Source of the DNA: Mycobacterium saskatchewanense
GTDB lineage: Bacteria; Actinomycetota; Actinomycetes; Mycobacteriales; Mycobacteriaceae
Length of the DNA: 64,000 nucleotides
Assembly: GCF_010729105.1 (NCBI RefSeq)
Contig: NZ_AP022573.1
Span: forward strand, 4,588,001-4,652,000
Direction of reading: 5' to 3'
Position 1 is the stretch's first letter; each line of letters begins with the position of its first letter. Below, piece by piece: positions 1 to 17,334 of the stretch. The notes under the pieces were generated by a model. It was not told the DNA's origin, did no database searches, and saw only the letters and a program-made list of their open reading frames with translations. Made by a program: the position numbers and the translations under genes.

Positions 1-1036
1 CAGCGGGCATGAGTTGCCAGCCGGTGATCTCGGTCTTATCGGGCGCCAGGGGGAACATCGTTCGGACCTGGATTCCGAAGTTGAGGTCGATCAGCGCCAT
101 GTTCGGGAAGATGATGGCGTTACGTGTGGTGTTGAGCATGCGTTTGGTGTGCGGTTCCCCGAGGCGTTGCACGGTTTCAGCACGCCGAGCCACCGTGGCA
201 TCCCGGATCTCTTCAGACATCAATGGCATTCCGAGCTCGGGGCTTTCGACCACGGCATGTCCATTACCCAAATCGCAACCCAGTCCATTGCCCTGCTGGG
301 CGACGAGCCCCGGGGTGACTCCGAGATTCAACATCATCTCGAAGTAGGTTTGATGCACGGTGAAGCCGTGGTAGCCATCGCAACTGTTCTCCATCAGCAG
401 CTTCCAGTTCGCCCGCATCGAATAGTTGTGCGTTCCCTGCACAATCTGCATGCCGCTGGAAGACTGATCGGCCACGAGATCGATCACGTGCTTGGCGTCA
501 CCGAGGTACTCGGGCAGCGGCGGAGCATCCGTTGAGTATGTCAAATACGTGAAACCGCCGTAGGTTTCGGTGCGAGGTTTGAACAGTCCGTGGTCGGCGC
601 GCGAGAAGTGCTCACTGTAGCGCTGCCCGTCGGGGACATTGATCAGAGCACCTTGGTTGTCATAGGCCCAGCCATGGTAGAAGCAGACGAAGTTCTTACG
701 GTTGCCCCGCCGCTCCCGGCATACTTCCGCTCCGCGGTGGCGACAGGTATTGAGCATCACCTGGATTCCACCGTCGCGGTCGCGTGCGTAGATGACGGTA
801 CGGCCACCCACCCGCCGAGTTTGAAAGTCGTTGGGCCGTGGAATTTCCGACTCATGGCCGACGTAGAGCCAACACTTGGCGAAGATTTCCTCTTGCTCGC
901 GCCGGAAGATCTCCTCGGAGGTGAAAGCCGATCGGTGCACACGGAAGAGGTTCTTCTCGCGGTCGTCGACGACCAGCGATCGTGATTGCGCATGGATCAT
1001 GCTGTTGCCTTTCGTCATTTCCGAGTCACCGTTCAT
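1..1036 (-). CDS. Rieske aromatic ring-hydroxylating oxygenase, alpha subunit (3' end cut by window edge)
   Basis: This is the large subunit of a Rieske non-haem iron oxygenase that would hydroxylate an aromatic ring using electrons from a reductase/ferredoxin chain. About 345 residues are visible; the C-terminus lies left of the window. The Rieske cluster ligands are C98-x-H100 and C118-x2-H121. The catalytic-domain motif N217-x2-D220-x2-H223-x4-H228 supplies the bridging Asp and two iron ligands; the third ligand would lie beyond the edge. The chosen ATG at 1036 overlaps the stop of the upstream extradiol dioxygenase gene as ATGA, suggesting translational coupling; an in-frame ATG at 1018 is the alternative. 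No beta subunit or ferredoxin gene is visible and either could lie to the left. The overall class is clear; the substrate is not. Confidence 0.9.
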   Translation of the reverse strand, partial: MNGDSEMTKGNSMIHAQSRSLVVDDREKNLFRVHRSAFTSEEIFRREQEEIFAKCWLYVGHESEIPRPNDFQTRRVGGRTVIYARDRDGGIQVMLNTCRHRGAEVCRERRGNRKNFVCFYHGWAYDNQGALINVPDGQRYSEHFSRADHGLFKPRTETYGGFTYLTYSTDAPPLPEYLGDAKHVIDLVADQSSSGMQIVQGTHNYSMRANWKLLMENSCDGYHGFTVHQTYFEMMLNLGVTPGLVAQQGNGLGCDLGNGHAVVESPELGMPLMSEEIRDATVARRAETVQRLGEPHTKRMLNTTRNAIIFPNMALIDLNFGIQVRTMFPLAPDKTEITGWQLMPA

Positions 1037-1977
1037 GAGCTCGCCGGTAACAGGGGAGCGCCCGGGGTCGGGCTCACCGCGGCCGTGGCCGCCGGGTCGG
1101 CCACGGTGAGTACCCGCGTCGAGGGTTCGATTGCGATCTCGGGCAGCGGCGATAACCAGATATCGGTGGTCTCGGCCGACATTGGCAGGACCCGAGTTCG
1201 GTGGGTGGCATCGTCGACCTGAGGATGCCCAGTACAGAACTCGACCGCGAATCCGCGCTCCTCGTCTTTCATGTATACGCCGATCGACCCCGACGGGGCG
1301 TGGCGCAGCAGGTCGTCGCGCAGCTTGACTCCGTGGCGTAGTGCGTTGTTGCGGAAGCGCATGACATCGTCGATTGACTCGACCTGAATGCAGAAATGGT
1401 TGAACGCCGAGCGTGGAGCGCGAATGAGGACTAGTGAGTGATGGTAGCGGTCACCGGCGCGCATGAAGACCACGTTGTCGGCGATCCAGTCGGAAGGTTT
1501 GAAGGCGAGCACCTCCTGATGGAAGCGCGCCGCGTGATCGAATTCGGCCGTGGCCCATCCGGCGTGCAGGAACTTTTCCATGGTCACACCGGTGTTGACC
1601 GGCGCAACGCCGCGTTCGTGCATCCCTGAGTAGACTTCGATGTCCGTGCCACCTGGGTCGGTGAAGCGCAGCCAGTGCGACACCCGATCCGACCGGGGGT
1701 CGCCGCCTTCGGTGAATTCGATGCCCCAGTTCGTGAGACCGTCGCGGATGGCCGGGTACGACTCCTCGCCCGTGACCTCATACCCGATGCGTTTAACGCC
1801 TTGCCTCGTGCCCTCTTCGAGTCGGATCCAGTGATGGTCGCGTCCGCCCGTCATGAAAGCGGTGCGCCCGACGACTTCGGTCAGGTCCAGTCGTGCAAAG
1901 CGCGAATAGAACGCGGTGGCTTCAGCAAGATTGTTGACACCGATAACCAGGTAGCCGAACTTGTGGATGAGATCCAT
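1033..1977 (-). CDS. Extradiol ring-cleavage dioxygenase (two-domain VOC / catechol 2,3-dioxygenase type)
   Basis: The 314-residue protein has two vicinal-oxygen-chelate repeats (about residues 5-117 and 134-255). Type I extradiol dioxygenases bind Fe(II) with His-His-Glu, and the expected residues are present as H138, H194 and E246. Such enzymes open a catechol ring next to the hydroxyls and give a yellow meta-cleavage product. A tail of about 60 Pro/Ala/Thr-rich residues after the second domain is longer than usual. The gene is first in a leftward operon with the Rieske oxygenase (4-nt ATGA overlap) and is divergent from the IclR gene. The domain call is firm; ring cleavage is inferred from the ligand triad and the neighbouring downstream-pathway genes. 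Confidence 0.88.
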   Translation of the reverse strand: MDLIHKFGYLVIGVNNLAEATAFYSRFARLDLTEVVGRTAFMTGGRDHHWIRLEEGTRQGVKRIGYEVTGEESYPAIRDGLTNWGIEFTEGGDPRSDRVSHWLRFTDPGGTDIEVYSGMHERGVAPVNTGVTMEKFLHAGWATAEFDHAARFHQEVLAFKPSDWIADNVVFMRAGDRYHHSLVLIRAPRSAFNHFCIQVESIDDVMRFRNNALRHGVKLRDDLLRHAPSGSIGVYMKDEERGFAVEFCTGHPQVDDATHRTRVLPMSAETTDIWLSPLPEIAIEPSTRVLTVADPAATAAVSPTPGAPLLPASS

Positions 1978-2186
1978 GACTGTCCTCTCGGATGGTGAGC
2001 CTGGTGCTCAAGCGGCACGCGCCTTGGCTGTGTGGCCGTTTAGTTGACTGTGGATCGTGTTCGCACGCCGCACCAATTTGATCGTTCCATCACGCGGTCG
2101 CCAGATCATCGACCGATTCCGGACGGGCACACGCATTGCTTCGCGCACCTGACCGACACCCAGCATGGCTCTTGCCGTCTAAAATT

Positions 2187-2228
2187 TCAACGCTAACGTT
2201 GACGAATGACGACCGCGGAGCGTAGTGT
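2187..2228 (+). promoter_or_regulatory. Candidate promoter of the IclR gene with an overlapping palindromic operator
   Basis: A palindrome with arms CAACG and CGTTG around a 4-nt centre (2188-2201; 2187-2202 also pairs) overlaps a -35-like TTGACG (2199-2204). An 18-nt spacer leads to a -10-like TAGTGT (2223-2228). It lies in the 314-bp gap between the divergent extradiol dioxygenase and IclR genes, where IclR regulators commonly bind. Binding by this IclR protein is inference. The rest of the gap (1978-2186) shows no gene. Confidence 0.45.
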
Positions 2229-2291
2229 AACCCGTGTCACAGACCGCGCCAGCCGGTCGTTCACACGTCATTCCGCAGATGGGGAGCGCAG

Positions 2292-3119
2292 ATGGCCTTA
2301 GCAGCGCCGAGTCCGGCACATCCAGTTGAGCCATCAGGCGGCGCGGCGGTTATGGATGAGCAGTCGCGCAACAACGGGATTGGTCTGGCCACCAGCGTGG
2401 GTAAGGCATTAGCTGTTCTGGACAGTTTCCGTGGCGGGGGGGCACGGTTGGGTGTTTCGCAAATCGCGGCGCGTGCCCAGATCCCGAAGAGCACAGCCCA
2501 CCGACTGCTGAACGTCCTCGTCGACCACGGGTACGTCGATCGCCTGGATGCGCGCTACCAGCTTGGCCGCGCCGCATTCGAACTGGGCAATTCTGTCGCT
2601 GAATGCCGTCCCCGCAGCCTACGGGCCGTAGCGATTCCGTTCATGATTGACCTGCACCGCAGCTTCGGCGCGACTGTGCATTTGGCGGTGCTGGACGGGA
2701 TGGACGTTCTCTACGTCGAGAAGATCTATGGCCACAACGGTGTTGACGTTCCCAGCCAGGTGGGCGGGCGGGTTCCAGCGCTGTGCACTGCGCTCGGGAA
2801 GGCGATTGCGGCGCGGTCCGACGAGGTGACCGTGGCGCGCATCCTCGGCGCCGGGGTACCGCGCCTCACGCCGAAGACCATCACACATACTGCGCTGGTG
2901 AAGATGGCATTAGATCGGGCACGGCAGAGCGGTGTGGCCCACGACTTGGAAGGTTCTGCCCCAGGAGCGCGTTGTGTGGCCGCGCCCATTATTCGTCGCG
3001 GTTCCTATGAGGTACTCGGAGCGATTTCGCTGAGTTTCGCGATCAGTGAGAAGCTTCCGACCACGGTCGAGGTCCGGTTGATTCAGGCGGCCACCGCAAT
3101 CGGCGTTCGCTGCCCATAG
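2292..3119 (+). CDS. IclR-family transcriptional regulator
   Basis: The 275-residue protein has a winged helix-turn-helix at about residues 33-95 (the segment IPKSTAHRLLNVLVDHGYVD is the recognition region), followed by the IclR effector-binding domain to the C-terminus (a GGRVPALCTALGKAIAA-like motif around 158-174). IclR proteins often control aromatic catabolic operons. The ATG at 2292 is chosen because GGGGAG (2281-2286) precedes it at good spacing; ATG 2352 is a weaker alternative. It sits between the ring-cleavage genes (divergent) and the ferredoxin reductase gene (same strand, 94 bp downstream), so it probably controls the aromatic cluster. The inducer is unknown. Confidence 0.92.
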   Translation: MALAAPSPAHPVEPSGGAAVMDEQSRNNGIGLATSVGKALAVLDSFRGGGARLGVSQIAARAQIPKSTAHRLLNVLVDHGYVDRLDARYQLGRAAFELGNSVAECRPRSLRAVAIPFMIDLHRSFGATVHLAVLDGMDVLYVEKIYGHNGVDVPSQVGGRVPALCTALGKAIAARSDEVTVARILGAGVPRLTPKTITHTALVKMALDRARQSGVAHDLEGSAPGARCVAAPIIRRGSYEVLGAISLSFAISEKLPTTVEVRLIQAATAIGVRCP

Positions 3120-3213
3120 AGATAGGCCGCAGCGGTCCGTCAGGCGTGATCCGTTTCCACTGAGCGGTATTGCGACTGGCGCTGATGTGCGGCTCGCGTC
3201 CGACACTAAAGCG

Positions 3214-4401
3214 ATGAATGTGGTTATAGCAGGTGCGTCGCTGGCCGGCTTGCGAACGGCAGAGGCGCTGCGGTCACGCGGATACCAGGGTTCGATTGCC
3301 CTCGTCGGCGCGGAGGCCGAGTTACCCTACGACCGGCCGCCGCTATCAAAAGACTTTCTTGGCGAGGCACATTCGGACCAAGCGCCATTGCTGCGGTCGG
3401 CGGACACCCTAGACGTACTGGAGCTTGATCTGCGTCTTGAGACGAGAGTGGAATCGCTGGATGCGGCGCGTCGGGTGGTAAGACTGTCAGACGGCGATCA
3501 ATTGCCTTTCGACTCTTTGGTTATCGCGACCGGTGCTGATGCACGGACATTGCCGGTTGCGCAGGGACTCGAAGGTGTACATGTCCTGAGGACTCTCGCC
3601 GATGCCCGCGAGCTACGTGCGGCGCTGGACAGAAGCAGCCATCTGCTGGTCGTCGGCGGTGGATTCATCGGAGCCGAGGTGGCGGCCGCGGCGCGCCTAC
3701 GCGGGATTGATGTTGACTTGATCGAAGTTTTACCCGCGCCGATGTCTGCCGTCCTGGGCGCAACGGCGGGCAATCTGCTCGGTCAGCTGCACCGTGCCGA
3801 GGGGGTGAGGCTGCATTGCGGGACGACGGTGACCGCTGTCAAGGGCAGTGGGCGCGTTGAGCGCGTGGAGTTGTCTGATGGGTCGGCCATCGATGTCGAC
3901 TTGATGGTCCTAGGCCTCGGAGTAACACCGGCGACCGGCTGGCTGCGGGGAAGCGGTCTGGACATCGTCGACGGTGTGAAGTGCGATGCCCGGTTGCGCG
4001 CCGTCGGGTGGCCCAACATCTACGCCGCCGGCGACGTTGCACGATGGGACCACCCTTTGTTCGGCGAGTCTGTGCGGGTGGAGCATTGGACGAACGCCAA
4101 TGAGCATGCTGACGTCGTCGCAGCGTCGATCCTCGGCGTAGACAAGGACGCGCGAAGCGTGCCGTACGTCTGGTCGGACCAGTACGCGCATCGGATACAG
4201 ATCGTCGGGAGGCCGGGCTGCGCAGACGACGTGATCGTCCGGGCTGACCCCGGGCAACGACGCCATGTGGTGGCCTATCAACGACGCGCGCGTCTTGTCG
4301 GCGTGCTCACGGTGAATGCGCCGCGTGTCATGCTGAAAGGCCGGAAGGCCATTTTGAGCGGCAGCTCAGCCGAGGAGCTGCTCACCGGCCCGCCAGCCTG
4401 A
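3214..4401 (+). CDS. FAD-dependent ferredoxin reductase (oxygenase-coupled NAD(P)H reductase)
   Basis: The 395-residue protein matches the flavoprotein reductases that feed Rieske oxygenases and P450s. An N-terminal FAD-binding beta-alpha-beta is at about residues 3-30 (a GASLAG variant of the GxGxxG loop), an ATG motif is at 105-107, the NAD(P)-binding loop GGGFIGAEV is at 148-156, and the second FAD motif YAAGDVA lies near residue 275. The segment PYDRPPLSKDFL (38-49) is typical of the family. ATG 3214 starts directly at the first beta strand; GTG 3187 is an alternative. It follows the IclR gene. It is the natural electron donor for the Rieske oxygenase or the P450 here, but no ferredoxin gene is visible in the window. 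Confidence 0.9.
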   Translation: MNVVIAGASLAGLRTAEALRSRGYQGSIALVGAEAELPYDRPPLSKDFLGEAHSDQAPLLRSADTLDVLELDLRLETRVESLDAARRVVRLSDGDQLPFDSLVIATGADARTLPVAQGLEGVHVLRTLADARELRAALDRSSHLLVVGGGFIGAEVAAAARLRGIDVDLIEVLPAPMSAVLGATAGNLLGQLHRAEGVRLHCGTTVTAVKGSGRVERVELSDGSAIDVDLMVLGLGVTPATGWLRGSGLDIVDGVKCDARLRAVGWPNIYAAGDVARWDHPLFGESVRVEHWTNANEHADVVAASILGVDKDARSVPYVWSDQYAHRIQIVGRPGCADDVIVRADPGQRRHVVAYQRRARLVGVLTVNAPRVMLKGRKAILSGSSAEELLTGPPA

Positions 4402-4686
4402 TCCGGGACGTCGTGTCCTGCCGGGGGGCACGCCGTCGCCGTCCTGCGCATCGGTCACATCGCCGGGCAGAACCTGAGGGCCCCGGTTGAGTACCGCCGT
4501 CGTGGCCTGTCCTCGAACGAACCATACGTCGGCGTTGTCGTCGGGCTGCAGGGGCTCGATCTCGACCGATGTGTACGGTTGACCGTCAGCGTCGTGCAAT
4601 CCGATCGTAATGTGGATGGCGCACCCGTCGGTCTGGATGCGCAGCAATTTGTCCGCGCCACCCGCGTGGTGCTCGACGATCCGCAT
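4366..4686 (-). CDS. Small hypothetical protein
   Basis: I do not recognise this 106-residue protein. Its first 65 residues look like a folded domain of alternating beta strands (for example LLRIQTDGCAIHITIGL), while the C-terminal 40 residues are Gly/Arg/Pro-rich and the last 36 bp run antisense to the end of the ferredoxin reductase gene. A GTGAGG precedes the ATG. The gene lies just downstream of the hydrolase gene (4726-5697) on the same strand, so it may be co-transcribed with it. The unusual tail could mean the true protein is shorter or that the frame is partly spurious. Confidence 0.5.
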   Translation of the reverse strand: MRIVEHHAGGADKLLRIQTDGCAIHITIGLHDADGQPYTSVEIEPLQPDDNADVWFVRGQATTAVLNRGPQVLPGDVTDAQDGDGVPPGRTRRPGSGWRAGEQLLG

Positions 4687-4725
4687 GTTGCCTCACGCAC
4701 ATCCCGCTGAAATTGCCGGATTTGG

Positions 4726-5697
4726 CTAGACGGTCGCCGGACGGCGTGCCTCGACCAGAGCGGGATTCTCCGGCCGCCGCGTTGAAACCCCCGCCGCCCG
4801 AGCGGTTTCACGGCTGACTATGCCGTCGCGGAAGAACTCGACGAAAACACGGGCGAACAGCTCCGGCTGGTCTGTTTGTCCCTGGTGTCCGCAATCGTCG
4901 GGGTAAAAGAATTGAACTTTCGGCAGTGCGTCCTCCACGCGATATCCCAGTTCCTCGACCGGGAGGATGACGTCGTTCCGTCCGTACAGGCACAGGCCGG
5001 GGATCTCGAGCTTGTCCAGCCTGTCCTTCGTGGACATGCACGTGGCGACATCGGCCGGAATTTCGCCGTGCAGAGTGGCTTTCTGCCAGGCAATCCAGGA
5101 CTGTTCGTGCACGTCGGCCGACCGCATCCGCATCTCCAACAAGTCGTCGGTGATGGCCTCGCGATGATGGATGATCGAGTTCATCATCTTGATCATTGTG
5201 TCCCGTGTGCCGTCCCAGCCCACCTCTTTGCGTAAGTCCTGCTGCCCGAACGGCACGAGGTCGCCGACAGGTCCAGCGATGAGGACGAACCGCTTCACCC
5301 GATGAGGAAATCGAACCAGGTAATGAGCCGTGTTGATGCAACCCATCGAGTTGCCCGACAGAAAGAACTCGTCGAGGCACAGTGCTTCGACAAACCGTTC
5401 GAGAAAGTTCGCATGTGAATAGGGCCCGTGGATCGGCCAGTATTCGGGCCGAGGATCGGATAGTCCGAACCCGGGTTGATCGGGACAGTAGACGCGAAAT
5501 CCCGCTTGAGCAATCAACGGAGCCAGTATCCGCCAGCCGGCCAGCCCTGATGAGCCGGGGATGCCCCCATGCAGGAGGACCACGGCTGGGCCGGTCTCTC
5601 CGGAGGTCATGTAGTGAGCTCGCTCGCCGTTCGCGAGTCGAACCCAGCGGCTGAGCATGCCCGGTACCTCGATCAACCCTTCATCGGTCAGCGCCAC
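4726..5697 (-). CDS. Alpha/beta-hydrolase, probable meta-cleavage-product hydrolase
   Basis: The 323-residue alpha/beta-hydrolase resembles MhpC/BphD/HsaD enzymes that split the C-C bond of the ring-fission product. The oxyanion motif is HGG (43-45), the nucleophile is S117 in GNSMG, the acid is D242 in YGRNDVILP, and the base is H271 in DDCGHQGQ. The start GTG 5697 is chosen because AAGGAG lies 7 nt upstream; an in-frame ATG at 5757 has no such site. Genes for the preceding step (extradiol dioxygenase) and the following ones (hydratase, aldolase, acetaldehyde dehydrogenase) are all in the window. The fold and triad are certain; C-C hydrolase activity is inferred from context. Confidence 0.82.
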   Translation of the reverse strand: MALTDEGLIEVPGMLSRWVRLANGERAHYMTSGETGPAVVLLHGGIPGSSGLAGWRILAPLIAQAGFRVYCPDQPGFGLSDPRPEYWPIHGPYSHANFLERFVEALCLDEFFLSGNSMGCINTAHYLVRFPHRVKRFVLIAGPVGDLVPFGQQDLRKEVGWDGTRDTMIKMMNSIIHHREAITDDLLEMRMRSADVHEQSWIAWQKATLHGEIPADVATCMSTKDRLDKLEIPGLCLYGRNDVILPVEELGYRVEDALPKVQFFYPDDCGHQGQTDQPELFARVFVEFFRDGIVSRETARAAGVSTRRPENPALVEARRPATV

Positions 5698-5791
5698 TGC
5701 GCTTCTCCTTTCCATGCCCGACAACTGCGCCAGCAATGTGGTGCCAGCGCCTTGCATGGTTGTCCGCGAGGGCGGTCACGACAAGCCCGTG

Positions 5792-5975: not shown

Positions 5976-6752
5976 ATGGATACCACTTCGGCCTCCGTCA
6001 TTGGGGTCAACGAGGCGCAGACCATCAAACTCGGTGGTTGGTCGGTGTTCCTGTTCTTGATGCTGTTCGGAATCGGATGGGGCATCTTGGGGCGCAACAT
6101 CCCCCCGTACAGTCCCTCGCTGACCGCCGCGGAGATTTCTGCGGTGTTCCGCGACCACGCTGGCCCGATGCGGATAGGGCTGGCGCTGGGGGCATTCTCG
6201 ACGACCTTCCTCATGACCTGGGCGGTCGCTCTGTTCCGGCTGTTAATTCACATCGAGCGTGGCGGCAAGATTCTGTCTTACCTGCAGCTGATGGGTGGAA
6301 GCCTGACCGCCATGGTGCCGCTGTTCGCGTGCATTACCTGGTTAACGGCGGCATTCCGGCCCGAGCAGGATCCAAACGTCGTACGCATGCTCTACGACTT
6401 GGGTTGGCTGATAATGGATATCGGCTTCGGGATAACCATTGTGCAGTACGTCGCACTTGGGATCATCGCCATTCGAGATCAGCGCGACGTCATCATTTTT
6501 CCCAAATGGCTTGGCTGGCTTGGCATCTGGATAGGCACCGAGTTTGCAGTTGAGCTGGTGATGCCCAGCTTCCGCGCGGGGCCATTTGCATGGGACGGAT
6601 TGTTCGCCTACTGGATCCCCTTCTTCGTACCCTTTGCGTGGATGGTGATGGTCGCGGTTTGCATGATCCGTGGCACCGACAGACTGGCGACGCCGGCAGT
6701 GCCGCCATTCGAGCGATTGGGCCCCGAGATAACGAGAGACCAAAATGCGTAA
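5976..6752 (+). CDS. Polytopic membrane protein of unknown function
   Basis: The 258-residue protein has about six hydrophobic segments (roughly 22-40, 68-88, 100-122, 140-165, 176-196, 212-236). I recognise no family. A clear ribosome site (GGAGG) lies just before ATG 5976. The end overlaps the oxidase subunit III-like gene by 8 bp, and a subunit IV-like gene follows, so these three form one operon. It may be a partner of those oxidase-like subunits or a membrane carrier for the catabolic pathway; neither can be shown from sequence. Confidence 0.85.
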   Translation: MDTTSASVIGVNEAQTIKLGGWSVFLFLMLFGIGWGILGRNIPPYSPSLTAAEISAVFRDHAGPMRIGLALGAFSTTFLMTWAVALFRLLIHIERGGKILSYLQLMGGSLTAMVPLFACITWLTAAFRPEQDPNVVRMLYDLGWLIMDIGFGITIVQYVALGIIAIRDQRDVIIFPKWLGWLGIWIGTEFAVELVMPSFRAGPFAWDGLFAYWIPFFVPFAWMVMVAVCMIRGTDRLATPAVPPFERLGPEITRDQNA

Positions 6753-7365
6753 ACCGCTGGATTATCGGCCGCCGTGGGACGGTGCGACCATGCCGGATGT
6801 GGCGGCGAAGCTTCCGGCGCTTCCCGGGGATTCGGGCCTTTGGGCGTTCATCGCTTTTGACGCCAGCCTCTTCGCACTTCTATTCGGCCAGTTTTCATGG
6901 GATCGACTACAGCATGTGGCCGTGTTCAACGCGGCGCAAAACCAACTGATTCGGCAACCGGCGGTGCTCAACACCGTGGTCCTTGTCAGCGGTTCGCTGA
7001 CCATGGCGTTCGCGGTGCGCTGCGCTCATTCGCGTGATCGCAGCGGGTCGCAGAAATGGATCACGGCGACCGCCGCTCTTGGCCTGATGTTCATTCTCAT
7101 CAAGGTGGTGGAATATCTTCTCGAGTCTATCGGTGGTCACACGCTGGCGGGCGGTGGATTCTTCACGTACTACTACATGCTCACCGGCTTTCACCTCACT
7201 CACGTGGTCGCCGGGGTCGCGGCGCTGCTGGTGGTTGCCGCGCGTCAGCGGCGTGGTCGACCGCCCCGGCGGGACGGACTACTAGTCGAATCCGTTGCCG
7301 CTTACTGGCATTTCGTGGATCTTGTGTGGATGTTCATTTTCCCTCTGATATATCTGGCTCGCTGA
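6745..7365 (+). CDS. Cytochrome c oxidase subunit III-like (NorE-type) membrane protein
   Basis: The 206-residue protein has about five membrane segments and the subunit III signatures FHLTHVVAG (about 153-161) and YWHFVDLVWMF (about 187-197). It is shorter than a respiratory CtaE and lacks its first two helices, as in NorE-type proteins. No catalytic subunit I or copper subunit II gene is present in the window, so it is an orphan accessory subunit. ATG 6745 overlaps the preceding membrane gene, and the NorF-like gene starts 3 nt after its stop. Family membership is strong; function outside a complete oxidase is unknown. Confidence 0.85.
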   Translation: MRKPLDYRPPWDGATMPDVAAKLPALPGDSGLWAFIAFDASLFALLFGQFSWDRLQHVAVFNAAQNQLIRQPAVLNTVVLVSGSLTMAFAVRCAHSRDRSGSQKWITATAALGLMFILIKVVEYLLESIGGHTLAGGGFFTYYYMLTGFHLTHVVAGVAALLVVAARQRRGRPPRRDGLLVESVAAYWHFVDLVWMFIFPLIYLAR

Positions 7366-7368
7366 CCT

Positions 7369-7632
7369 ATGGCCGCCTCAAAGCGTGTGTTGGTGGCCGC
7401 GTGGATAGCACTGGTCCTGCTGACGCTGTCCTCGGTAGCGGTCGGCGAACTCTCCGTCCTCGATGGGACGACGGTCACCCTCCTTGTCATGGCCATCGCC
7501 GCCATCAAAGGAAGCGTCATCCTGGACTGCTACATGGGGGGCCGGTCGTTTCCGCTCGCGTGGAAGCTCTTCTTTGCGGTGTGGCTGATCGGCAGCACTT
7601 CCACCATCGTCGTACTACACCTATCGATTTGA
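7369..7632 (+). CDS. Cytochrome c oxidase subunit IV / NorF-like small membrane protein
   Basis: The 87-residue protein has three predicted helices (about 5-25, 33-52, 62-84), with the conserved Lys-bearing middle helix ending KGSVILDCYMGGR. This matches the prokaryotic subunit IV/NorF family, which pairs with subunit III/NorE proteins. It lies 3 nt downstream of the subunit III-like gene and ends the three-gene membrane operon. It probably assembles with its neighbour in the inner membrane. What catalytic core they serve is unknown. Confidence 0.8.
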   Translation: MAASKRVLVAAWIALVLLTLSSVAVGELSVLDGTTVTLLVMAIAAIKGSVILDCYMGGRSFPLAWKLFFAVWLIGSTSTIVVLHLSI

Positions 7633-7696: not shown

Positions 7697-9316
7697 GTGA
7701 TGCAGGTGACGCAGGAGGGAATCGATAATCGGAGCTTTGATGTGGTCGTTATCGGTGGGGGTCACAACGGGCTGACCGCGGCGTGCTATCTCGCCCGCCG
7801 CGGACTCGCCGTCTGTGTCCTGGAGGCGGCGGGGGGTATCGGGGGGATGACCGCTTCGGGCACACCGATCGAGCGGGCCCCCGACCACGTCGTGAACTAC
7901 TGCTCGGCAGATCTTCTGTTCTGGCTGTCCAGTCCGGTCGAGCGTGAACTCGAGCTTCATCGATACGGCTTGAGCACGATTGTTGTGGACCCGTGCTATG
8001 CCTACCTGCACCCTGACGGTGCCTCAGTAGCGGTGTGGAAGGATCCATGTCGCACCGCCGACGAGATCCGCCACTTCTCCAGGCCGGATGCCGAGTCTTA
8101 TTTGGAGTACGTGCGATTCCTCGATGCTCTTTTCGACATCGCTTTCCCGTTCATGCTCAGCAACCCGGCAAGGCCGGGACGGTCATCGTTGACGGCGATG
8201 GTCAGAGCGGCATTCAAGCATCGCCGCCTGTTGAGGCGGTTCGGCGAGTTCCTCGTGGCGTCCGGAGAGGAGACGATCGAACAACGCTTCACCCATCCGG
8301 TGACCAAGTCGCTGCTGTATTGCCTTGGGGCAGGAGCCAATCCAATCGATATGCACGGGACTTCCGTGACCCATCTATTCCTTGGGTTCCTGCACCGCAG
8401 CGGCACCGCGCGCCCGGTCGGCGGCATGCAGGCCATTCCGGCGGCGTTAGCGCGGCGACTGATCAGCACGGGCGGGACCATTCACACCGACGCTGAGGTC
8501 GCAGAGATCATCGTGCGGGGCGGCAAGGCGGTCGGAGTACGGCTCACCGACGAGCGACAGTTCCACGCACGGACGGCGATCCTCGCCACACCTGACCCGC
8601 GCACCACGCTGGGTCGGCTACTTCCGCCCGGAACGTTGTCTCACGAACTCGAGACCCGGGTGCGGCACATTCCCGCCAATAGCCGTGGTGCGGGGGCGAT
8701 GAAGACGGACCTGGCATTGGCCGGGCGGGTCACCCTGGATCGCCACCAGAGGTGGCGAAGGGATGAGGTAGACCTACGTAAGCCGGCGATCTTGATCGGC
8801 ACAAGCGATCAGATTCGCCGCGGTTGGGCGCGGGCAGCAGCGGGTATCGTGCCTGACGCTGACGATATCGCGCTGTGGCCGGTGCTGCTCACCGGCGCGG
8901 ACCCCTCCCAGGCCCCCGACGGCCAGGATTCGCTGTATCTCTTCGCCACCAACATGCCCCTGCATCCTGATGGCGGCTGGGAGAAATGGCAGCATCATGC
9001 CGCCGAAAGAATCGTCGAGCGTGCGGGTCAATTCTATGACGGATTGGCGGAACTCGAGATTGGACGTTGGGTGGAATCCCCCGAGCTGGCCCAACAACGC
9101 ACGCGTGCCACCAACGGCGCCGCGATGCACGTCGACCACCTTCTGTTCAGCCAGGGGCCGATGCGGCCGGCACTTGGGCTGGGCGGACGGAAGCTGCCGG
9201 TGGATCGGCTCGTGTTGGGCGGCGCGGGCGCTCATCCGGGTGGCGGTGTATCGGGGCTTCCCGGCAGGAGAGCTGCACGAAATATCCTCCTGGCCAGAGG
9301 CATCCGCGAGCTATAG
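7697..9316 (+). CDS. CrtI/phytoene dehydrogenase-like FAD oxidoreductase
   Basis: The 539-residue protein has an N-terminal FAD dinucleotide-binding motif, DVVVIGGGHNGL (about residues 15-26), and the C-terminal CrtI-like segment GGAGAHPGGGVSGLPG near residue 515, which closes the FAD site. The middle motif GGMQAIPAALARRL is also typical. Enzymes of this superfamily desaturate or isomerise hydrophobic substrates. GTG 7697 follows AAAGGAG (7679-7685); ATG 7700 is next. There is no carotenoid synthase nearby, so a role on the catabolic substrate or an intermediate is more likely than carotenoid synthesis. The gene lies 64 bp after the oxidase-like operon. The exact reaction is unknown. Confidence 0.85.
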   Translation: MMQVTQEGIDNRSFDVVVIGGGHNGLTAACYLARRGLAVCVLEAAGGIGGMTASGTPIERAPDHVVNYCSADLLFWLSSPVERELELHRYGLSTIVVDPCYAYLHPDGASVAVWKDPCRTADEIRHFSRPDAESYLEYVRFLDALFDIAFPFMLSNPARPGRSSLTAMVRAAFKHRRLLRRFGEFLVASGEETIEQRFTHPVTKSLLYCLGAGANPIDMHGTSVTHLFLGFLHRSGTARPVGGMQAIPAALARRLISTGGTIHTDAEVAEIIVRGGKAVGVRLTDERQFHARTAILATPDPRTTLGRLLPPGTLSHELETRVRHIPANSRGAGAMKTDLALAGRVTLDRHQRWRRDEVDLRKPAILIGTSDQIRRGWARAAAGIVPDADDIALWPVLLTGADPSQAPDGQDSLYLFATNMPLHPDGGWEKWQHHAAERIVERAGQFYDGLAELEIGRWVESPELAQQRTRATNGAAMHVDHLLFSQGPMRPALGLGGRKLPVDRLVLGGAGAHPGGGVSGLPGRRAARNILLARGIREL

Positions 9317-9557: not shown

Positions 9558-10560
9558 TCACCCTGCCTTTGGTGGGGTGCGTTTGTGATCGTAGTAGAGC
9601 GTCTCGACGGCCTCGGGAGTGAAGTCGTCGAGGTACTCGTGGGGGCGTTCGGTGTTGAACCAGACCACCCATTCAGCGGTCGCCAGCTCGACCTGGTTGA
9701 CGTCGCGCCACGGGCCTTGCCGGCGGATAAGTTCGTTCTTGAACGAGCCGACGGTGGTCTCGGCCAGCGCATTGTCCAGCGCATCGCCAACCGAGCCGAC
9801 GGAGGGATCCACGCCCTCATCGATGAGCCGCTGGGTGAAGGCCACCGAGGTGTATTGACTGCCCGCGTCGCTGTGCGCAATCAGCCCGTGCAGACTGGTG
9901 GTGCCGTCCTGGGCGCGAGTGAAGAACGCATGCTCGATAGCGTCGAGGACCAGATCGGTGGTCATGGATCTGGCGGCCCGCCAGCCTAGGATCCGGCGGC
10001 TGTAGGCGTCGATGACGAATGCGACGTAGACGAATCCCATCCAGGTCGACACATACGTAAAGTCGGCCACCCACAACCGATTTGGCGCCGCGGCATAAAA
10101 GCGGCGGTCCACCAGATCCGGGTATCGCCGATGAGTGTCGTCGGCGATGGTGGTCTTGTGCTTGGATCCGTACCGCGCGCCCTCCCAACCGTTCTCGCGC
10201 ATGATCCGCTCCACCGTGCACCGGGCGACATCGTGACCCTGGCTGCGTAGCCAGATCCACAACTTGCGTGACCCCAGCGTCTGGACGAACTTGCCCTTTT
10301 TCTTGTCTTCCCGCGCCGCGGTGATGATCTCGACCAGCTCGGCGTCATGGATCTGCCGTCGTGTCGGGGTCTTGTTGATCCACTCGTAGTAGGTCGACGG
10401 GCTGATCGGCACGCCATGCTCAGACAGCACCGCACACATGGGCTCGACACCCCAGCGCAGCCCGGCCCCGCCGTTGGGGCCGGCCACCTGGTGGTCCTTG
10501 TGTTCGGCGATGAACCGGATCACCGTCTCCCGGGCCGGTCGAGCTCGGCCCCGAAGAAAA
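9558..10560 (-). CDS. IS3-family transposase OrfB (DDE integrase part, reached by -1 frameshift)
   Basis: This frame encodes the rve/DDE catalytic domain. The three acidic residues appear in the contexts VADFTYVSTWMG (first D), AHSDAGSQYTS (second D) and DNALAETTVGSFKNEL (E), with the expected D-D-35-E spacing pattern. OrfB has no good start of its own. It lies in the -1 frame relative to OrfA and is joined at a T-rich slip site (TTTTC, 10560-10556), which gives an OrfAB fusion transposase. The boundary at 10560 is the inferred slip point, not a start codon. The C-terminal RPHEYLDDFTPEAV is the usual IS3 ending. Confidence 0.9.
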
Positions 10561-10843
10561 TCGCCGCTGCTTTCAAGATCTCGTTGGCCCGGCGCAGCTC
10601 GGCAATCTCCTTGCGCAGCGCCTTGTTCTCCTCGGCCATCGCGGAGGTCACACCCGGCCGCTGGCCGGTATCGACCTCCGAGCGGCGGATCCAGGTCCGC
10701 AACGTCTCCGGTGTGCCGATCCCCAACATGCCCGTGACCGCCGTGATCGCCGCCCACTGCGACGGGTACTGCGGGCGCACCTCAGCGACCATGCGCACCG
10801 CACGTTCACGAAGCTCGTCGGGGTACTTGCTGACACGTCCCAT
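10520..10843 (-). CDS. IS3-family transposase OrfA (helix-turn-helix protein)
   Basis: The 107-residue protein has an N-terminal helix-turn-helix that binds the terminal repeats (RYPDEL-type start, then WAAITAVTGMLGIGTPETLR) and a leucine-zipper-like coiled coil (about 65-95, NKALRKEIAELRRANEILK), ending FFGAELDRPGRR. This layout matches IS6110-type OrfA. It overlaps OrfB by about 40 bp, as expected for programmed frameshifting. The start lies 51 bp inside the right end of the element. Confidence 0.93.
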   Translation of the reverse strand: MGRVSKYPDELRERAVRMVAEVRPQYPSQWAAITAVTGMLGIGTPETLRTWIRRSEVDTGQRPGVTSAMAEENKALRKEIAELRRANEILKAAAIFFGAELDRPGRR

Positions 10844-12109: not shown

Positions 12110-12407
12110 GAGCGCGCAGCTAGAAGGTCCACATGAGCACGCAGCTGTGCCTCGACACCGTAGCGAGGATCCTGTACCACGGGGTGCGGAGAGCAGTGCT
12201 CGTGCCCTGGCCGATATCGCCGGTAAGGCTCGGCGGAAGATGCGGCAGCCATCCTCACGTGATTCGATGCGAACGGCGCGGCGGTAGAGTCCGCAGTCAG
12301 CGCACCAAGATAAGGCCATCGCTTCGCGCTGGATCAAGCAGCTGCGACTTCCACTATCGGAGCGGCACAGTACTTGGCGGACGCGTGTCTCAGCAAGGAA
12401 CCGGGGG
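12110..12407. other. Stretch with no recognisable gene
   Basis: These 298 bp between the P450 and the next hypothetical gene have open frames on both strands. None has convincing codon use, a ribosome site or a recognisable product, and I see no repeat or tRNA. It may be decayed coding sequence within the island. Confidence 0.5.
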
Positions 12408-12716
12408 TCACCCGAGGCGACGAGGTCGGCATGTTCGTTCCACCAGCCACGACAACCGCACCTCGTCTGGGGTATCGGAATAACCGCGTAGCCACAGGCG
12501 CAAGGCATCGGTGAGGTCGGCTGGAAGGACGTCGTGGTCGTCCGCGACGAGCTGCAACATCGCCTCGATCGCAACCAGGTCATCGCCGGCGCCAAGTTGC
12601 ATGTAGATAGCGTCTCTCTGCTGACGCGGCACCTCGTCGAGCAGAAATTCTGCGAGGCGCCAACATAACTGCGCGCTTACAGCTGACTTTCTTCCCGCTC
12701 GCCGGGTCGCTCTCAC
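12408..12716 (-). CDS. Hypothetical protein
   Basis: I do not recognise this 102-residue protein. It looks like real coding sequence: after a basic N-terminus it is mostly acidic helix (for example RLAEFLLDEVPRQQRDAIYM and DLVAIEAMLQLVADDHDVL), with a Trp-rich end (LRLWLRGYSD, LSWLVERT). It lies in a gene-poor stretch between the rightward P450 and hydratase genes and is transcribed against both. It may be a small regulator or a leftover of an older locus; the sequence does not decide. Confidence 0.5.
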   Translation of the reverse strand: MRATRRAGRKSAVSAQLCWRLAEFLLDEVPRQQRDAIYMQLGAGDDLVAIEAMLQLVADDHDVLPADLTDALRLWLRGYSDTPDEVRLSWLVERTCRPRRLG

Positions 12717-12924
12717 GGCTCGAATTCAACCGCTGCTCGCTGCCGCCAAAAACGTCTCGTTCTGTTTGGCAAGACGCGAATCCCAGACGGTGGCGACCGG
12801 TGTCGTGTCCGATGCCGCCGGCTGAACAGCGCAGTGGGAGCACGCGGTCTCCGTAGCCCGTCCGGGTTCCGCCTGGGGGAACGGCGAGGCTGACGAATGA
12901 GTGTAGTCGCGCGAGGCTTGGCCG

Positions 12925-13719
12925 ATGAGCGAAGGCGAATCCGGTCCGGCCATACGCTCGGCCGCGTCACGACTCCTTCAAGCGCGAGCGTCGCGCCAGC
13001 CGTGCGCACCGGTGCGCGACCTCATCGGATCCTCCGATATCGGTCTGGCATACCGTGTTCAGCACCGGGTGAACGAGGACCGCATCGCCAACGGCGCGGC
13101 CGTTGTCGGACACAAGATCGGTCTGACGTCGCCTGCGGTGCAAAAGCAGCTCGGTGTCAACCAACCCGATCTTGGCGTTCTTTTCTCGGACATGTGCTAC
13201 AGCGAAGGCGATAAAGTGCCCATCGACGAGCTCCTGCAGCCGAAAGTAGAAGCGGAGATTGCCTTCGTGCTCGGCGCGGACCTCGACGAGGAACATGTCG
13301 ACGCGCACCGATTCCGGGGAGCGGTTGATCACGCGGTGGTGGCTCTGGAGGTGGTCGACAGCCGAATCGCAAACTGGGACATCACCATCACCGACACGAT
13401 CGCCGATAACGCCTCCTGCGGGCTGTTCGTCCTCGGCGAGAAAACGCTGTCGATCGAGGACTTTGAACCCGCCAATGTATCGATGACGTTGGCCATGGAC
13501 GGTGAGATCGTATCCGTGGGCGACGGCAAGGCCTGCCTGGGCGACCCTCTGGCGGCGTGTGCATGGCTCGCCACCACCGGCCGCCGCTTCGGTTCGCCAT
13601 TACGTGCGGGCGACATCGTCTTGTCTGGTGCGTTGGGCCCCATGGTCGGTGTCTGCGCCGGTAGTCGCATCAGCGCTGAGATCAGTGCGCTGGGAAGGGT
13701 TTCTGCGACCTTCGCTTAA
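12925..13719 (+). CDS. 2-hydroxypenta-2,4-dienoate hydratase (MhpD/HsaE family)
   Basis: The 264-residue enzyme of the fumarylacetoacetate hydrolase fold adds water to the dienoate left after meta-cleavage-product hydrolysis, giving 4-hydroxy-2-oxo acid. Signature segments are [19 protein letters not shown] (about 59-77), the metal-binding [13 protein letters not shown] (about 103-115, Glu ligands) and [21 protein letters not shown] (about 143-162). GAGG precedes the ATG. It starts a tight four-gene rightward operon: hydratase, acylating aldehyde dehydrogenase (11 nt gap), aldolase, aldehyde dehydrogenase. It is homologous to HsaE of steroid degradation and to MhpD/BphH; which substrate class it serves is not clear from sequence. 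Confidence 0.92.
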
Positions 13720-13730
13720 GGAGAGCACAC

Positions 13731-14669
13731 ATGGACCGGACAAAAGTTGCCATCATCGGTTCCGGCAATATCGGCACGGATCTGATGATGAAGGTCGAGC
13801 GATCACCGCTGCTTGAGGTGACAGCGATGGTGGGCGTCGATCCGCGGTCCGACGGGCTCGCGCGGGCCCGCGACCATAACGTTGCCGTTACCGCCGACGG
13901 AATTGACGGGTTTTTGCAGTTGCCGTGTTTCGAGGAGGTCGCGATCGTGTTCGATGCGACTTCCGCGCAGGCGCACCCACGCAATGCGGCCGCGCTGTCG
14001 CAGTCCGGCAAGCGCATCATCGACCTGACGCCCGCGGCACTCGGTCCGTACGTGGTTCCTGCGGTGAACTTAGAGGATCACCTCGAGGAGCCGAACATGA
14101 ACATGGTGACCTGCGGTGGGCAGGCGACCATCCCGATCGTCGCGGCTATCTCGGCCATCGCCCCAGTCGCGTACGCGGAGATTGTGGCGTCGATCGCCTC
14201 GAAATCAGCCGGACCAGGGACCCGGGCGAACATAGACGAGTTCACTGAAACCACCACGCATGCCATCAAATCGGTAGGCAACGCCCGGCAGGGAAAGGCG
14301 ATCATCATCCTCAACCCCGCCGAACCGCCTCTCATCATGCGCGATACGGTCATGTGTCTGATCGGCGAGGCCGATCACGATCGCGTACGTGGCTCTGTCG
14401 ACGCGATGGTCGCGACGGTAGCTAACTACGTACCCGGCTACCGACTCAAGCAGCCGCTCCAATTCAGCGCCGTAGGGGTTCACGACCCGGCGCACACATT
14501 GCTCACCGCGCCGTCGCCGCAGCCCAAGTGGAAGGTGGCGGCGTTCCTGGAGGTTGAGGGCGCTGCCGACTATCTGCCCGCGTACGCCGGCAACCTCGAC
14601 ATCATGACTTCAGCCGCGGTGCAGGTGGCAGCCCGGCTATCCCAGCACTCCCTGGCCGAGACCATCTGA
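13731..14669 (+). CDS. Acetaldehyde dehydrogenase (acylating) (MhpF/BphJ/HsaG family)
   Basis: The 312-residue enzyme converts the aldehyde released by the aldolase into acyl-CoA with NAD+ and CoA. It has the NAD-binding loop GSGNIGTDL (10-18), the catalytic cysteine C128 in [11 protein letters not shown], and the conserved segment [20 protein letters not shown] lies just upstream of the ATG. It is followed directly by the aldolase gene (1-nt TGATG overlap); in this family the two proteins form a channelling complex, so the gene order supports the call. Confidence 0.94.
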
Positions 14670-15703
14670 TGAACGGGTCAACTGTGTACATCCAAGACGT
14701 GACGCTCCGAGACGGAATGCACGCCGTGCGGCACCGCATGAGTCCCGAGCACATCGTCACGCTGGTCACCGCCCTCGACCGGGCGGGTGTCGACGCGATC
14801 GAAGTCGCGCACGGCGACGGCCTTGGGGGTTCCAGCCTCACCTACGGGCCCGGCAGCAACACAGACTGGGAGTGGATCGAAGCGGCCGCGTCACACATCA
14901 ATTCGGCTGTGCTGACCACGTTGCTGATACCTGGAATCGGCAGCATCTCGGCGTTGAAACATGCCGCCTCGCTGGGCGTAAGGTCGGTTCGGATAGCAAC
15001 GCACTGCACCGAAGCCGATATCGCTGCTCAACACATTCACACGGCACGTAACCTCGGAATGGACGTATCCGGCTTCTTGATGATGAGTCACATGGCTCCG
15101 CCCGTCGAGCTGGCCCAACAAGCCAAGCTGATGGAATCCTACGGGGCCAACTGCGTATACGTGACGGACTCCGGCGGCAGGCTGACGATGGGTGGCGTGG
15201 CCGAGCGCGTTCGCGCCTACCGAGACATCCTCGACTTGGGAACGCAGGTCGGTATACACGCACACCAGAACCTGTCACTAGCGGTAGCCAACTCCGTTGT
15301 CGCCGTCGAGGAGGGCGCAACGCGGGTGGATGCCTCGCTGGCCGGCCACGGCGCTGGAGCCGGAAACTGCCCGATCGAACCTTTTGTTGCGGTCGCCAAC
15401 CTCTTGGGTTGGACACACCGCTGCGACCTCTTCGCGCTCGAAGACGCCGCCGACGACCTGCTGCGGCCATTGCAGGATCGCCCGGTCCAAGTGGACCGCG
15501 AAACGCTGACTCTCGGGTACGCCGGCGTGTACTCGAGCTTCCTTCGCCACGCCGAGGCTGCGTCGGCCGCCTACGGCGTCGACGTACGCTCGATCCTGAT
15601 CGAGGCCGGACGCCGTTCGCTCGTCGGGGGCCAGGAAGACATGATCGCGGACGTCGCGCTCGATCTGGTCTCCCGGCGCGTTGAGACCGCAGGGCAGAAT
15701 TGA
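14669..15703 (+). CDS. 4-hydroxy-2-oxovalerate aldolase (MhpE/BphI/HsaF family)
   Basis: The 344-residue TIM-barrel aldolase splits 4-hydroxy-2-oxo acid into pyruvate and an aldehyde. It has the N-terminal catalytic R14-D15 in VTLRDGMHA, the metal ligands H197 and H199 in GIHAHQN, and the C-terminal DmpG-type communication domain. Start and stop both overlap neighbours by 1 nt (TGATG), showing a tightly coupled operon. It would channel aldehyde to the acylating dehydrogenase upstream. Length and motifs match the family exactly. Confidence 0.94.
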
Positions 15704-17334
15704 TGCTGCGCCAACGTGGAGACTCGCCCGAACGCATTGCTTCCCGGCAAGTTGCGCCGCTGGCGCAGCGGGGCGCCGGCGTGGCCGAAGCGTCCGATAC
15801 GGACCTTCACCCGGACGTGGCGCCGGAACTTGTGGCGGCCGCTCAAGCTGAGACGGCGCGGGTCGTGGAGCTGTTCGAGGCGCAACGGCGCGTCCACCTG
15901 ACCTCGAGGCCACCGGATGAAGCGGTTCGCCGCGACCGGCTGGACCGCCTGGCCGCAGCGCTGGGAGAGCATGCCGACACCATCGTGGGAGCGATCAGCG
16001 CCGATTTTGGAAATAGGCCACTGGCGGGAGCGTTGGCCGGTGAAGTGCTTCTCCAACTCGAGGAAATCCGGACCACCAAAAGATCGCTGCGCAGATGGAT
16101 GGCGCCGTTTCGGCCGCAGCCGCGTTACCTGCGCTTCGCGGGGATTAAGGCATGGGTGGAGCCCACTCCACTGGGTGTGGTAGGCGTCATATCGCCGTGG
16201 AATTTCCCTGTCGCGCTGGCGATCCAGCCAACCATCGCGGCGATCGCGGCGGGCAACACGGTGATGATCAAGATGTCCGATCTGGCTCCACGCGCTGGTG
16301 CGGCAGTGGCTGAGGCGGTGGCTCAACGGTTTGACGCCGAGGAGTTGGCTGTGGTCTGCGGCGGACTTGAGGTCGCTACCGCGTTCAGCGCACTGCCCTT
16401 CGACCATCTTTTCTTCACCGGTTCCGCCGCAGTGGCCAAGCACGTGCAGCGCGCCGCCGCCGACAATCTCACTCCGCTCACCTTGGAACTGGGGGGAAAG
16501 AACCCGACCGTTGTGGCAACCGACGCCGACTTGCGCACCGCAGCCAGGCGTATCGTCGCTGCGCGGCTGGCGAACAGCGGCCAAGTGTGTCTCAGTCCAG
16601 ACTATGTCTTCGTGCCAAACCCCTCGCTGGCGGAATTCGTCGACGCCGCCATGGATGCGGGTCATCGCGCATTACCAACGGTGTTGGACAATCCGGATTA
16701 CTGCACCATCGTCAACGACTCTCACTACGAACGGATCTGTGCGCTGGTCCAGGACGCCCACGATCGTGGCGCCACCGTTCGTGAAGTGGTGCCAGCGGGA
16801 GAGTCTTTGCCCTCACGCCAAGCTCGACGTATCCCTTTTACGTTGATCAGCGACGTGAGCGCCGGCATGGCCGTCCTCGACGAAGAGATCTTCGGTCCGG
16901 TTCTTCCCGTGCTCGGCTATGACGACGTGAGCGAAGTCATCGATTTCGTCAACGCACGACCGACACCCCTGGCCGCGTATTGGTTCGGCCCGGATTCCGC
17001 GGACTTTCGTCATTTCACCGCCAGAACACGCAGCGGTGGGGTGACACGGAACGACTTCGCCCTGCACGCCAGCCTGCAGGGCCTCCCGTTTGGCGGAGTG
17101 GGCAGCAGCGGTACCGGCTACTACCACGGCAAATATGGCTTCGACACCTTCAGCCATATGCGGGCATTCGCGGTGTCGCCCAAGCACTTCAGTCCGGTCA
17201 GCCTGCTCAGTCCGCCGTTTGATCACCGCCTGGAAAGGGGGTTGGGCTTTGTGATCAGCGCTTGGAGCCGGCGGTTTACTAAACGGGTGAACCCCCGACG
17301 CCCGTCGCAGGCGTCGCCCGAGGTGGGTCCGTAG
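15703..17334 (+). CDS. Aldehyde dehydrogenase family protein
   Basis: The 543-residue NAD(P)-dependent aldehyde dehydrogenase has the motif GVISPWNFP (161-169), the general base E262 in LELGGKNP and the catalytic C296 in SGQVCLSPDY, then the C-terminal PFGGVGSSGTGYYHGKYG typical of class 3 / coniferyl aldehyde dehydrogenase-like members. It carries about 40 extra N-terminal residues, so the true start may lie further in. ATG 15703 overlaps the aldolase stop by 1 nt, which supports it. Being last in the lower-pathway operon, it may oxidise an aldehyde intermediate of the aromatic substrate or its side chain. Confidence 0.9.
   Translation: MLRQRGDSPERIASRQVAPLAQRGAGVAEASDTDLHPDVAPELVAAAQAETARVVELFEAQRRVHLTSRPPDEAVRRDRLDRLAAALGEHADTIVGAISADFGNRPLAGALAGEVLLQLEEIRTTKRSLRRWMAPFRPQPRYLRFAGIKAWVEPTPLGVVGVISPWNFPVALAIQPTIAAIAAGNTVMIKMSDLAPRAGAAVAEAVAQRFDAEELAVVCGGLEVATAFSALPFDHLFFTGSAAVAKHVQRAAADNLTPLTLELGGKNPTVVATDADLRTAARRIVAARLANSGQVCLSPDYVFVPNPSLAEFVDAAMDAGHRALPTVLDNPDYCTIVNDSHYERICALVQDAHDRGATVREVVPAGESLPSRQARRIPFTLISDVSAGMAVLDEEIFGPVLPVLGYDDVSEVIDFVNARPTPLAAYWFGPDSADFRHFTARTRSGGVTRNDFALHASLQGLPFGGVGSSGTGYYHGKYGFDTFSHMRAFAVSPKHFSPVSLLSPPFDHRLERGLGFVISAWSRRFTKRVNPRRPSQASPEVGP

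Follow-up and report, generated by a model that had tools for sequence, protein, structure and literature searches.

A putative aromatic-carboxylate degradation route on a 76-kb island of Mycobacterium saskatchewanense and its possible association with Mce importers

Introduction

The 64,000-nucleotide window analysed here covers positions 4588001-4652000 of contig NZ_AP022573.1, the single contig of the 6.0-Mb genome of Mycobacterium saskatchewanense, and opens within the gene for a Rieske dioxygenase alpha subunit. Together with its neighbours this gene probably forms part of a complete aerobic route for the degradation of an aromatic carboxylate, laid out like the cmt (p-cumate) and opa (phthalate/2,3-dihydroxybenzoate) pathways and carried on an inserted island of about 76 kb, which also bears an operon for an Mce importer. 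The logic of such pathways is already known; we infer each reaction and the substrate in the present case. Coordinates marked w are window coordinates, and negative values lie to the left of the window.

A complete set of predicted route enzymes

The enzymes needed for the route are present, and the motifs checked in the alpha subunit, the extradiol dioxygenase, the hydrolase and a decarboxylase candidate are intact. A script located C98/H100, C118/H121 and D220/H223/H228 in the alpha subunit, the iron ligands H138, H194 and E246 in the type I extradiol enzyme, and S117/D242/H271 in the hydrolase (numbered from the start at 5697). An original prediction, made from the sequence alone, had listed these same residues and named the enzyme families, and it was right on both counts. 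By analogy with naphthalene dioxygenase, we take D220 to be the probable bridging Asp and the third iron ligand to be the Asp at 372 or 373. Both the extradiol enzyme and the hydrolase fall in meta-cleavage families, and not in unrelated ones, by profile and sequence scores.

The same prediction held that the meta-cleavage set was self-contained, with the dihydrodiol dehydrogenase and ferredoxin missing. They are indeed outside the window, but both are present just to the left of it, where a search of the flank found the beta subunit, the diol dehydrogenase and the ferredoxin in one minus-strand run, and the set is thereby complete (Table 1). The ends of the extradiol, alpha and beta genes overlap, the SDR gene follows 10 bases on, and about 90 bases separate it from the ferredoxin frame as called. 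The IclR and reductase genes diverge from this run. Leftward of the ferredoxin, still on the minus strand, are genes for a TetR regulator, a second SDR, a DUF2889 protein, a FadD protein (w -6105 to -4567) and an Amidohydro_2 protein (w -7643 to -6636).

In the lower pathway, the aldolase and the acylating dehydrogenase passed their curated cut-offs. The hydratase, scanned as a frame of 235 aa, gave 272.9 bits against a cut-off of 350. The match of this frame to the model begins only at position 26, so the true start is most likely at 12925, giving 264 aa.

Table 1. Features of the window and its left flank (window coordinates)
Feature	Position	Strand	Remarks
Rieske ferredoxin	w -2060 to -1722	-	
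SDR diol dehydrogenase	w -1630 to -851	-	
Rieske beta subunit	w -840 to -340	-	
Rieske dioxygenase alpha subunit	1..1036	-	459 aa; CmtAb/BenA-like; runs left out of window (w -343 to 1036)
Type I extradiol dioxygenase	1033..1977	-	314 aa; 2,3-dihydroxyarylcarboxylate 3,4-dioxygenase-like; end overlaps alpha gene
IclR-type regulator	2352..3119	+	divergent from dioxygenase genes
FAD-dependent ferredoxin reductase	3187..4401	+	HcaD/AndAa-like
Small conserved open reading frame	4366..4686	-	106 aa; no Pfam match; 68% identical copy adjoins hydrolase in G008
Meta-cleavage product hydrolase	4726..5697	-	323 aa; S117/D242/H271; 84% identical copy in G008
DUF4386 membrane protein	5976..6752	+	may lie outside route
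CrtI-like FAD oxidoreductase (may lie outside route)	7700..9316	+	
Two-frame transposase	9558..10843	-	integrase core domain + HTH_Tnp_1; between CrtI-like and P450 genes
Cytochrome P450	10964..12109	+	nearest solved: CYP125 ancestor, P450cin, CYP124; may lie outside route
2-Hydroxypenta-2,4-dienoate hydratase	12925..13719	+	264 aa
Acetaldehyde dehydrogenase (acylating)	13731..14669	+	TIGR03215, 449.8 bits; cut-off 282.25
4-Hydroxy-2-oxovalerate aldolase	14669..15703	+	TIGR03217, 531.2 bits; cut-off 286; scanned from 14684
Aldehyde dehydrogenase	15703..17334	+	nearest solved: steroid aldehyde dehydrogenase; candidate for aryl-aldehyde to aryl-acid step
Mycobact_memb (MmpS-type) and MMPL proteins	18818..22122	+	near right end of island; may lie outside route
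Right limit of insertion	22981	.	empty site in G001

The decarboxylase candidate and the proposed route

The Amidohydro_2 protein, of 335 aa, had not been anticipated by the original prediction. Its 13 best solved matches are all named 2-amino-3-carboxymuconate-6-semialdehyde decarboxylase (ACMSD), with a best E of 1.5e-46. The DxHxH, FVHP, AHGGG and GTDYP motifs align with those of the best solved match, the metal motifs being conserved, and no second copy was found in the same genome at E 1e-20. ACMSD acts on a 3-carboxy meta-cleavage product and takes off its carboxyl group. OpaD, an ACMSD-like enzyme, does the same to the 3-carboxy compound formed by cleavage of 2,3-dihydroxybenzoate (PMC6362003). 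By analogy, the amidohydrolase gene could fill the step that CmtD performs in the cmt route.

The pathway would begin with the Mce importer, which may take up a hydrophobic substrate, and with the P450 and the aldehyde dehydrogenase, which may oxidize an alkyl group to a ring carboxylate. The Rieske alpha and beta subunits, with ferredoxin and reductase, would convert the aromatic carboxylate to a 2,3-cis-dihydrodiol, from which the SDR would form the 2,3-diol. The extradiol enzyme would cut the ring at 3,4, and the ACMSD-like enzyme may then remove the carboxyl group, as homology and the precedent of OpaD suggest. The hydrolase would release a short acid, perhaps isobutyrate, and 2-hydroxypenta-2,4-dienoate, which the hydratase, aldolase and acylating dehydrogenase would convert to pyruvate and acetyl-CoA.

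Some clues to the substrate come from the hydrolase, whose nearest solved relative is named 2-hydroxy-6-oxo-7-methylocta-2,4-dienoate hydrolase, other solved meta-cleavage hydrolases scoring almost equally. CmtE acts on this compound, releasing isobutyrate (PMC5224996). In Nocardioides Root682 (L021:6165-10936) a 62% identical extradiol gene comes right after genes for a two-part acyl-CoA mutase, a MeaB-type GTPase and a 3-hydroxyisobutyrate-dehydrogenase-like protein, neighbours that would fit a branched acid of four carbons as the product. A 74% identical mutase is encoded in the M. saskatchewanense genome, far from the island. Because of the hydrolase match and the mutase neighbourhood, an alkylated, perhaps isopropyl-bearing, aryl acid is a reasonable guess for the substrate. 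The original prediction had also allowed for a terpenoid and had counted the P450 and the CrtI-like protein as two extra oxidation systems; both proteins are possible members of the route, and a terpenoid is a possible substrate.

Pathway type and comparison with known systems

The original prediction had invoked routes of the Mhp and Hsa types. The source names of the relatives point elsewhere, to the p-cumate/2,3-dihydroxybenzoate type as the nearest. Among the best 120 of 3531 matches to the alpha subunit, 40 of 69 source-named relatives are labelled p-cumate dioxygenase, and among the best 120 of 163 matches to the extradiol enzyme, 54 of 76 source-named ones are labelled 2,3-dihydroxy-p-cumate/2,3-dihydroxybenzoate 3,4-dioxygenase; in both cases these are mostly automatic labels. 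Curated NCBIfam cut-offs served for tests of the Hsa, Bph and Ben types. Membership was rejected for HsaC (68.5 against 450 bits) and HsaD (94.1 against 400), for BphC (91.1 against 366.45) and BphD (84.7 against 462.15), and, with the alpha subunit, for BenA (290.1 against 780.95). Since the cut-offs were missed so widely, these three types are ruled out.

The cmt genes of Pseudomonas putida F1 and Burkholderia xenovorans LB400 resemble the present set in the Rieske dioxygenase with a separate ferredoxin, the diol dehydrogenase, a type I extradiol enzyme of 312-314 aa, the hydrolase, hydratase, aldolase and acylating dehydrogenase, and a TetR-type regulator nearby (PMC5224996). CmtC has 312-314 aa and CmtB 256-259 aa (PMC5224996); their counterparts here have 314 and 259 aa. 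The systems differ in that CmtD is a decarboxylase of 243-244 aa (PMC5224996), whereas the candidate here is the 335-aa ACMSD-like protein. The Mce operon and the IclR regulator are additions on the island, and the gene order is not the same. The opa genes of Pseudomonas sp. PTH10, which degrade o-phthalate via 2,3-dihydroxybenzoate, likewise comprise a Rieske system, diol dehydrogenase, type I extradiol enzyme, OpaD, hydrolase, hydratase, aldolase and dehydrogenase (PMC6362003). They include a TRAP-type solute receptor (PMC6362003) where the island has an Mce operon, and no island gene was assigned to the OpaE/OpaF/OpaG branch, for which the aldehyde dehydrogenase at 15703 was not tested.

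In mycobacteria, an Mce operon and a benzoate-dioxygenase-like gene are already known to occur on one island, MmGI-1 of Mycobacterium massiliense (PMC4263727). It shares with the present island the Mce operon, a benA-like dioxygenase gene some 20 kb off, a P450, FadD, acyl-CoA enzymes and carotene-ketolase-like proteins; in contrast, it was read as serving lipid metabolism, and its gene table names no extradiol enzyme or amidohydrolase, though many of the proteins listed there are hypothetical (PMC4263727). Plasmid NZ_CP025547 of Mycobacterium paragordonae has an Mce operon beside genes for an amidohydrolase, extradiol enzyme, hydrolase, Rieske alpha and beta subunits, hydratase, dehydrogenase and aldolase. 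The extradiol enzyme there is of another type, which we take to be LigB, the alpha subunit is 46% identical, and the regulator has an FCD domain. In the hsa/mce4 cholesterol system an Mce importer is tied to an extradiol meta-cleavage route, but the island's extradiol enzyme and hydrolase are far below the HsaC and HsaD cut-offs.

Extent of the island

The original prediction had described an island of 17 kb; the inserted block is really about 76 kb long, from w -53,132 to 22,981. These limits come from an empty site in the related genome G001, where DNA homology ends at both positions and both flanks are kept, 2.0 kb apart. Unless G001 lost the block, the 76 kb is, on this comparison, an insertion in M. 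saskatchewanense. Comparisons with G010 and G006 were less clear. In 5-kb windows over the 302 kb examined, GC content is 61-66% from about w -53,000 to 22,000 and mostly 65-74% outside, with one window at 63.6%. No tRNA gene was found within the island part of the window; integrase genes and attachment sites had no systematic search.

Distribution among relatives

The alpha family (E<=1e-90) was found at 45 places in 38 of 396 genomes of the genus, and the neighbourhoods of 35 of these places were read. The root of the alpha tree is unreliable, as the outgroup paralogs lie on very long branches. The extradiol gene is rare, with matches at 1e-60 in 4 of 198 genus genomes and in 1 of 396 phylum genomes, that of M. 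saskatchewanense itself. A scan of genome contigs for this gene gave two loci, one of them on contig C285 of G008, a metagenome-assembled genome from Mycobacterium. A second contig of G008 keeps part of the gene order: hydrolase (84% identical), small reading frame (68%), reductase (59%), IclR regulator (69%) and part of the alpha gene (77%).

The ACMSD-like gene is a usual, though not universal, partner of the alpha gene. It is present in 27 of 45 stretches around alpha relatives (27 of 38 plus 0 of 7), including all 20 of lineage VI. In the stretches of the four lineage IV loci, FAH-type genes take the place of an ACMSD-like gene. Outside the genus, no extradiol or ACMSD-like matches were found in the alpha stretches of G681, G625, G747 and G829, and those of G615, G807 and G397 have only weak extradiol-like matches (27-30%). 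Even the nearest full-length alpha genes in the genus (72% identical, in G899 and G917; L080, L079) have no extradiol, hydrolase or other partners in their stretches. Since alpha genes occur in stretches lacking extradiol partners, the alpha family alone is no proof of ring cleavage.

Pseudonocardia plasmid NZ_CP012185 (L034, L032) has a pair of Rieske/meta-cleavage clusters: the first includes a VOC-type extradiol gene together with a TRAP transporter, the second an extradiol gene of another type.

The Mce operon and its association with dioxygenase genes

The Mce operon of the island, at w -46,196 to -36,576, consists of eight consecutive genes, two for YrbE (MlaE) permeases and six for Mce proteins. 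Both permeases and the first two Mce proteins were called by a scan for MlaE/MlaD, and the remaining four were recognised by their similarity to genes annotated as Mce in L033/G878.

Proximity of alpha-family loci to yrbE genes was counted in ten near-complete mycobacterial genomes, drawn from the 38 alpha carriers and having fewer than 10 contigs each; G894 and G083 also qualified and were omitted. Two kinds of row were dropped before the count: 17 of the 115 for yrbE, which were weak operon mates of rows already included, and 1 of the 90 for PF00848, which was the second piece of one gene. Within 20 kb of a yrbE gene lay 8 of 12 alpha-family loci, compared to 5 of 77 other PF00848 ring-hydroxylating oxygenase loci (Fisher p 7e-6, not corrected for shared descent, the 12 loci being partly related). 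The 20-kb limit was chosen after the data had been seen; at 10 kb the counts are 5 of 12 and 3 of 77, and at 50 kb they are 9 of 12 and 21 of 77. The M. saskatchewanense locus, at 45 kb, enters only at 50 kb.

By lineage, the association varies. In lineage I (M. saskatchewanense, G899 and G917) the Mce operon of M. saskatchewanense is 45 kb away, and no Mce gene is labelled in the stretches of G899 and G917. The lineage II genomes G187 and G901 have Mce genes nearby, of a distant Mce type. In lineage III, Mce genes are near in G156 and 76 kb away in G178, with none listed in the Rhodococcus and Pseudonocardia stretches. They are near at three of four lineage IV loci and at neither of the two of lineage V. 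Of the 20 loci in lineage VI, 15 lie within 20 kb of yrbE, 2 are farther, and 3 have no yrbE on the contig among the matches listed. In G008, six Mce genes, 61-77% identical to those of the island, lie beside the 69% identical extradiol gene; no yrbE permease gene was found on that contig. The orthologous eight-gene Mce operon of G159 (C51; L119/L120; 64-83% identical) lies near a different Rieske-like gene set. After that operon, G159:C51 has genes for a different Rieske-like alpha subunit and an SDR, and one whose sequence suggests a beta subunit. In G163 (L121), DUF4386-like and COX3-like genes are near an orthologous Mce operon, much as DUF4386, COX3-like and COX4-like membrane proteins are encoded consecutively at window positions 5976-7632.

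It is possible, if somewhat less than probable, that in mycobacteria Rieske/extradiol routes for aryl acids have repeatedly been combined with orphan Mce importers, that the import of hydrophobic aromatic acids, or of precursors of these, is the dedicated role of such operons, and that in the present case an ACMSD-type enzyme decarboxylates the extradiol product. According to Casali and Riley, the mycobacteria with the largest number of Mce operons are those that degrade polycyclic aromatic hydrocarbons (PMC1810536), and no word beginning with "oxygenase" occurs in the accessible text of that paper. Meta-cleavage genes and many mce homologs are both reported for M. chlorophenolicum, with no link drawn between them in the accessible text (PMC4524478). 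The Mce-Rieske link was stated in no title or abstract opening found, in a literature that leaves out most subscription papers.

Alternative explanations

Several facts weigh against the aromatic-carboxylate route. The p-cumate names of the relatives are mostly automatic, and the alpha tree includes no characterised CmtAb or OpaAa. The extradiol enzyme and hydrolase score far under the curated cut-offs they matched, and therefore specificity cannot be transferred. Four genes, TetR, SDR, DUF2889 and FadD, lie between the decarboxylase candidate and the ferredoxin, and the candidate might act in a different route. Type I extradiol enzymes are encoded in lineage II (G187, G901) with no ACMSD-like gene in the stretches, and the stretches of G132 and L021, whose extradiol genes are 60-62% identical, have neither alpha-family nor ACMSD-like matches. 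The Mce operon is 45 kb from the alpha gene. Confidence in both the route and the Mce pairing is lower because the ACMSD-like gene accompanies only 27 of 45 alpha relatives, two extradiol relatives have none nearby, and the G008 contig has no permease.

The G132 and L021 stretches would also fit a meta-cleavage route through a neutral catechol. The substrate of the Rieske enzyme would then be an uncharged arene resembling cumene, biphenyl or a terpene, and the ACMSD-like protein would go with the neighbouring FadD and SDR genes. Biphenyl, benzene and cumene dioxygenases are among the nearest solved alpha subunits, and the nearest solved relative of the hydrolase is, we assume, compatible with cumene degradation as well. 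However, the alpha subunit scores 290 bits with the BenA model and 182 with the HcaE model, and the frequency of ACMSD-like genes around alpha relatives speaks for a carboxylated substrate; a neutral catechol thus seems unlikely. A single long route, rather unlikely too, would use the entire island for a polycyclic terpenoid or steroid-like acid. It would combine side-chain beta-oxidation with the action of two P450s and with two ring cleavages, and one of the rings would fall to the Rieske part. The acyl-CoA dehydrogenase, thiolase-like and FadD proteins, a second VOC/FAH/flavin-monooxygenase set, E1-like and E2-like proteins and the Mce operon of the island would find a place in it, and the P450 and aldehyde dehydrogenase are nearest to solved enzymes that act on steroids or terpenoids. 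Yet the left half of the island is never a block beside the Rieske part in the relatives compared, and the presence of both IclR and TetR regulators suggests separate units. That unrelated cassettes were gathered by insertion into a patchwork, some of them possibly decaying, is improbable: a transposase pair lies inside the island, the clusters are split into runs of differing orientation and some stretches have no clear role, but the route enzymes checked are open with intact motifs, and part of the core gene order is kept in G008.

Other genes of the island

Elsewhere the island holds genes for an acyl-CoA dehydrogenase, thiolase-like proteins, FadD proteins and another P450. A possible second ring-cleavage set at w -20984 to -17782 comprises consecutive genes for a single-domain VOC protein, an FAH-family hydrolase and an RdmE/MhpA-like flavin monooxygenase. 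Proteins resembling 2-oxoacid dehydrogenase E2 (w -23069 to -21693) and an AceE-like E1 (w -12622 to -10274) score under the curated cut-offs. A luciferase-like monooxygenase gene at window positions 17434-18462 is flanked by the aldehyde dehydrogenase and MmpS/MmpL-type genes. The two-frame transposase is presumably of the IS3 type.

Implications

The cargo of Mce transporters is known for few of them, cholesterol for Mce4 and fatty acids for Mce1, and such transporters are numerous in mycobacteria. The association with dioxygenase genes is the new part of this analysis and may offer a testable lead on Mce cargo; a recurring tie to a single family of ring-opening pathways yields a concrete hypothesis on what orphan operons import. 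Genes that are sometimes annotated as virulence factors may thus serve the use of plant- or soil-derived aromatics.

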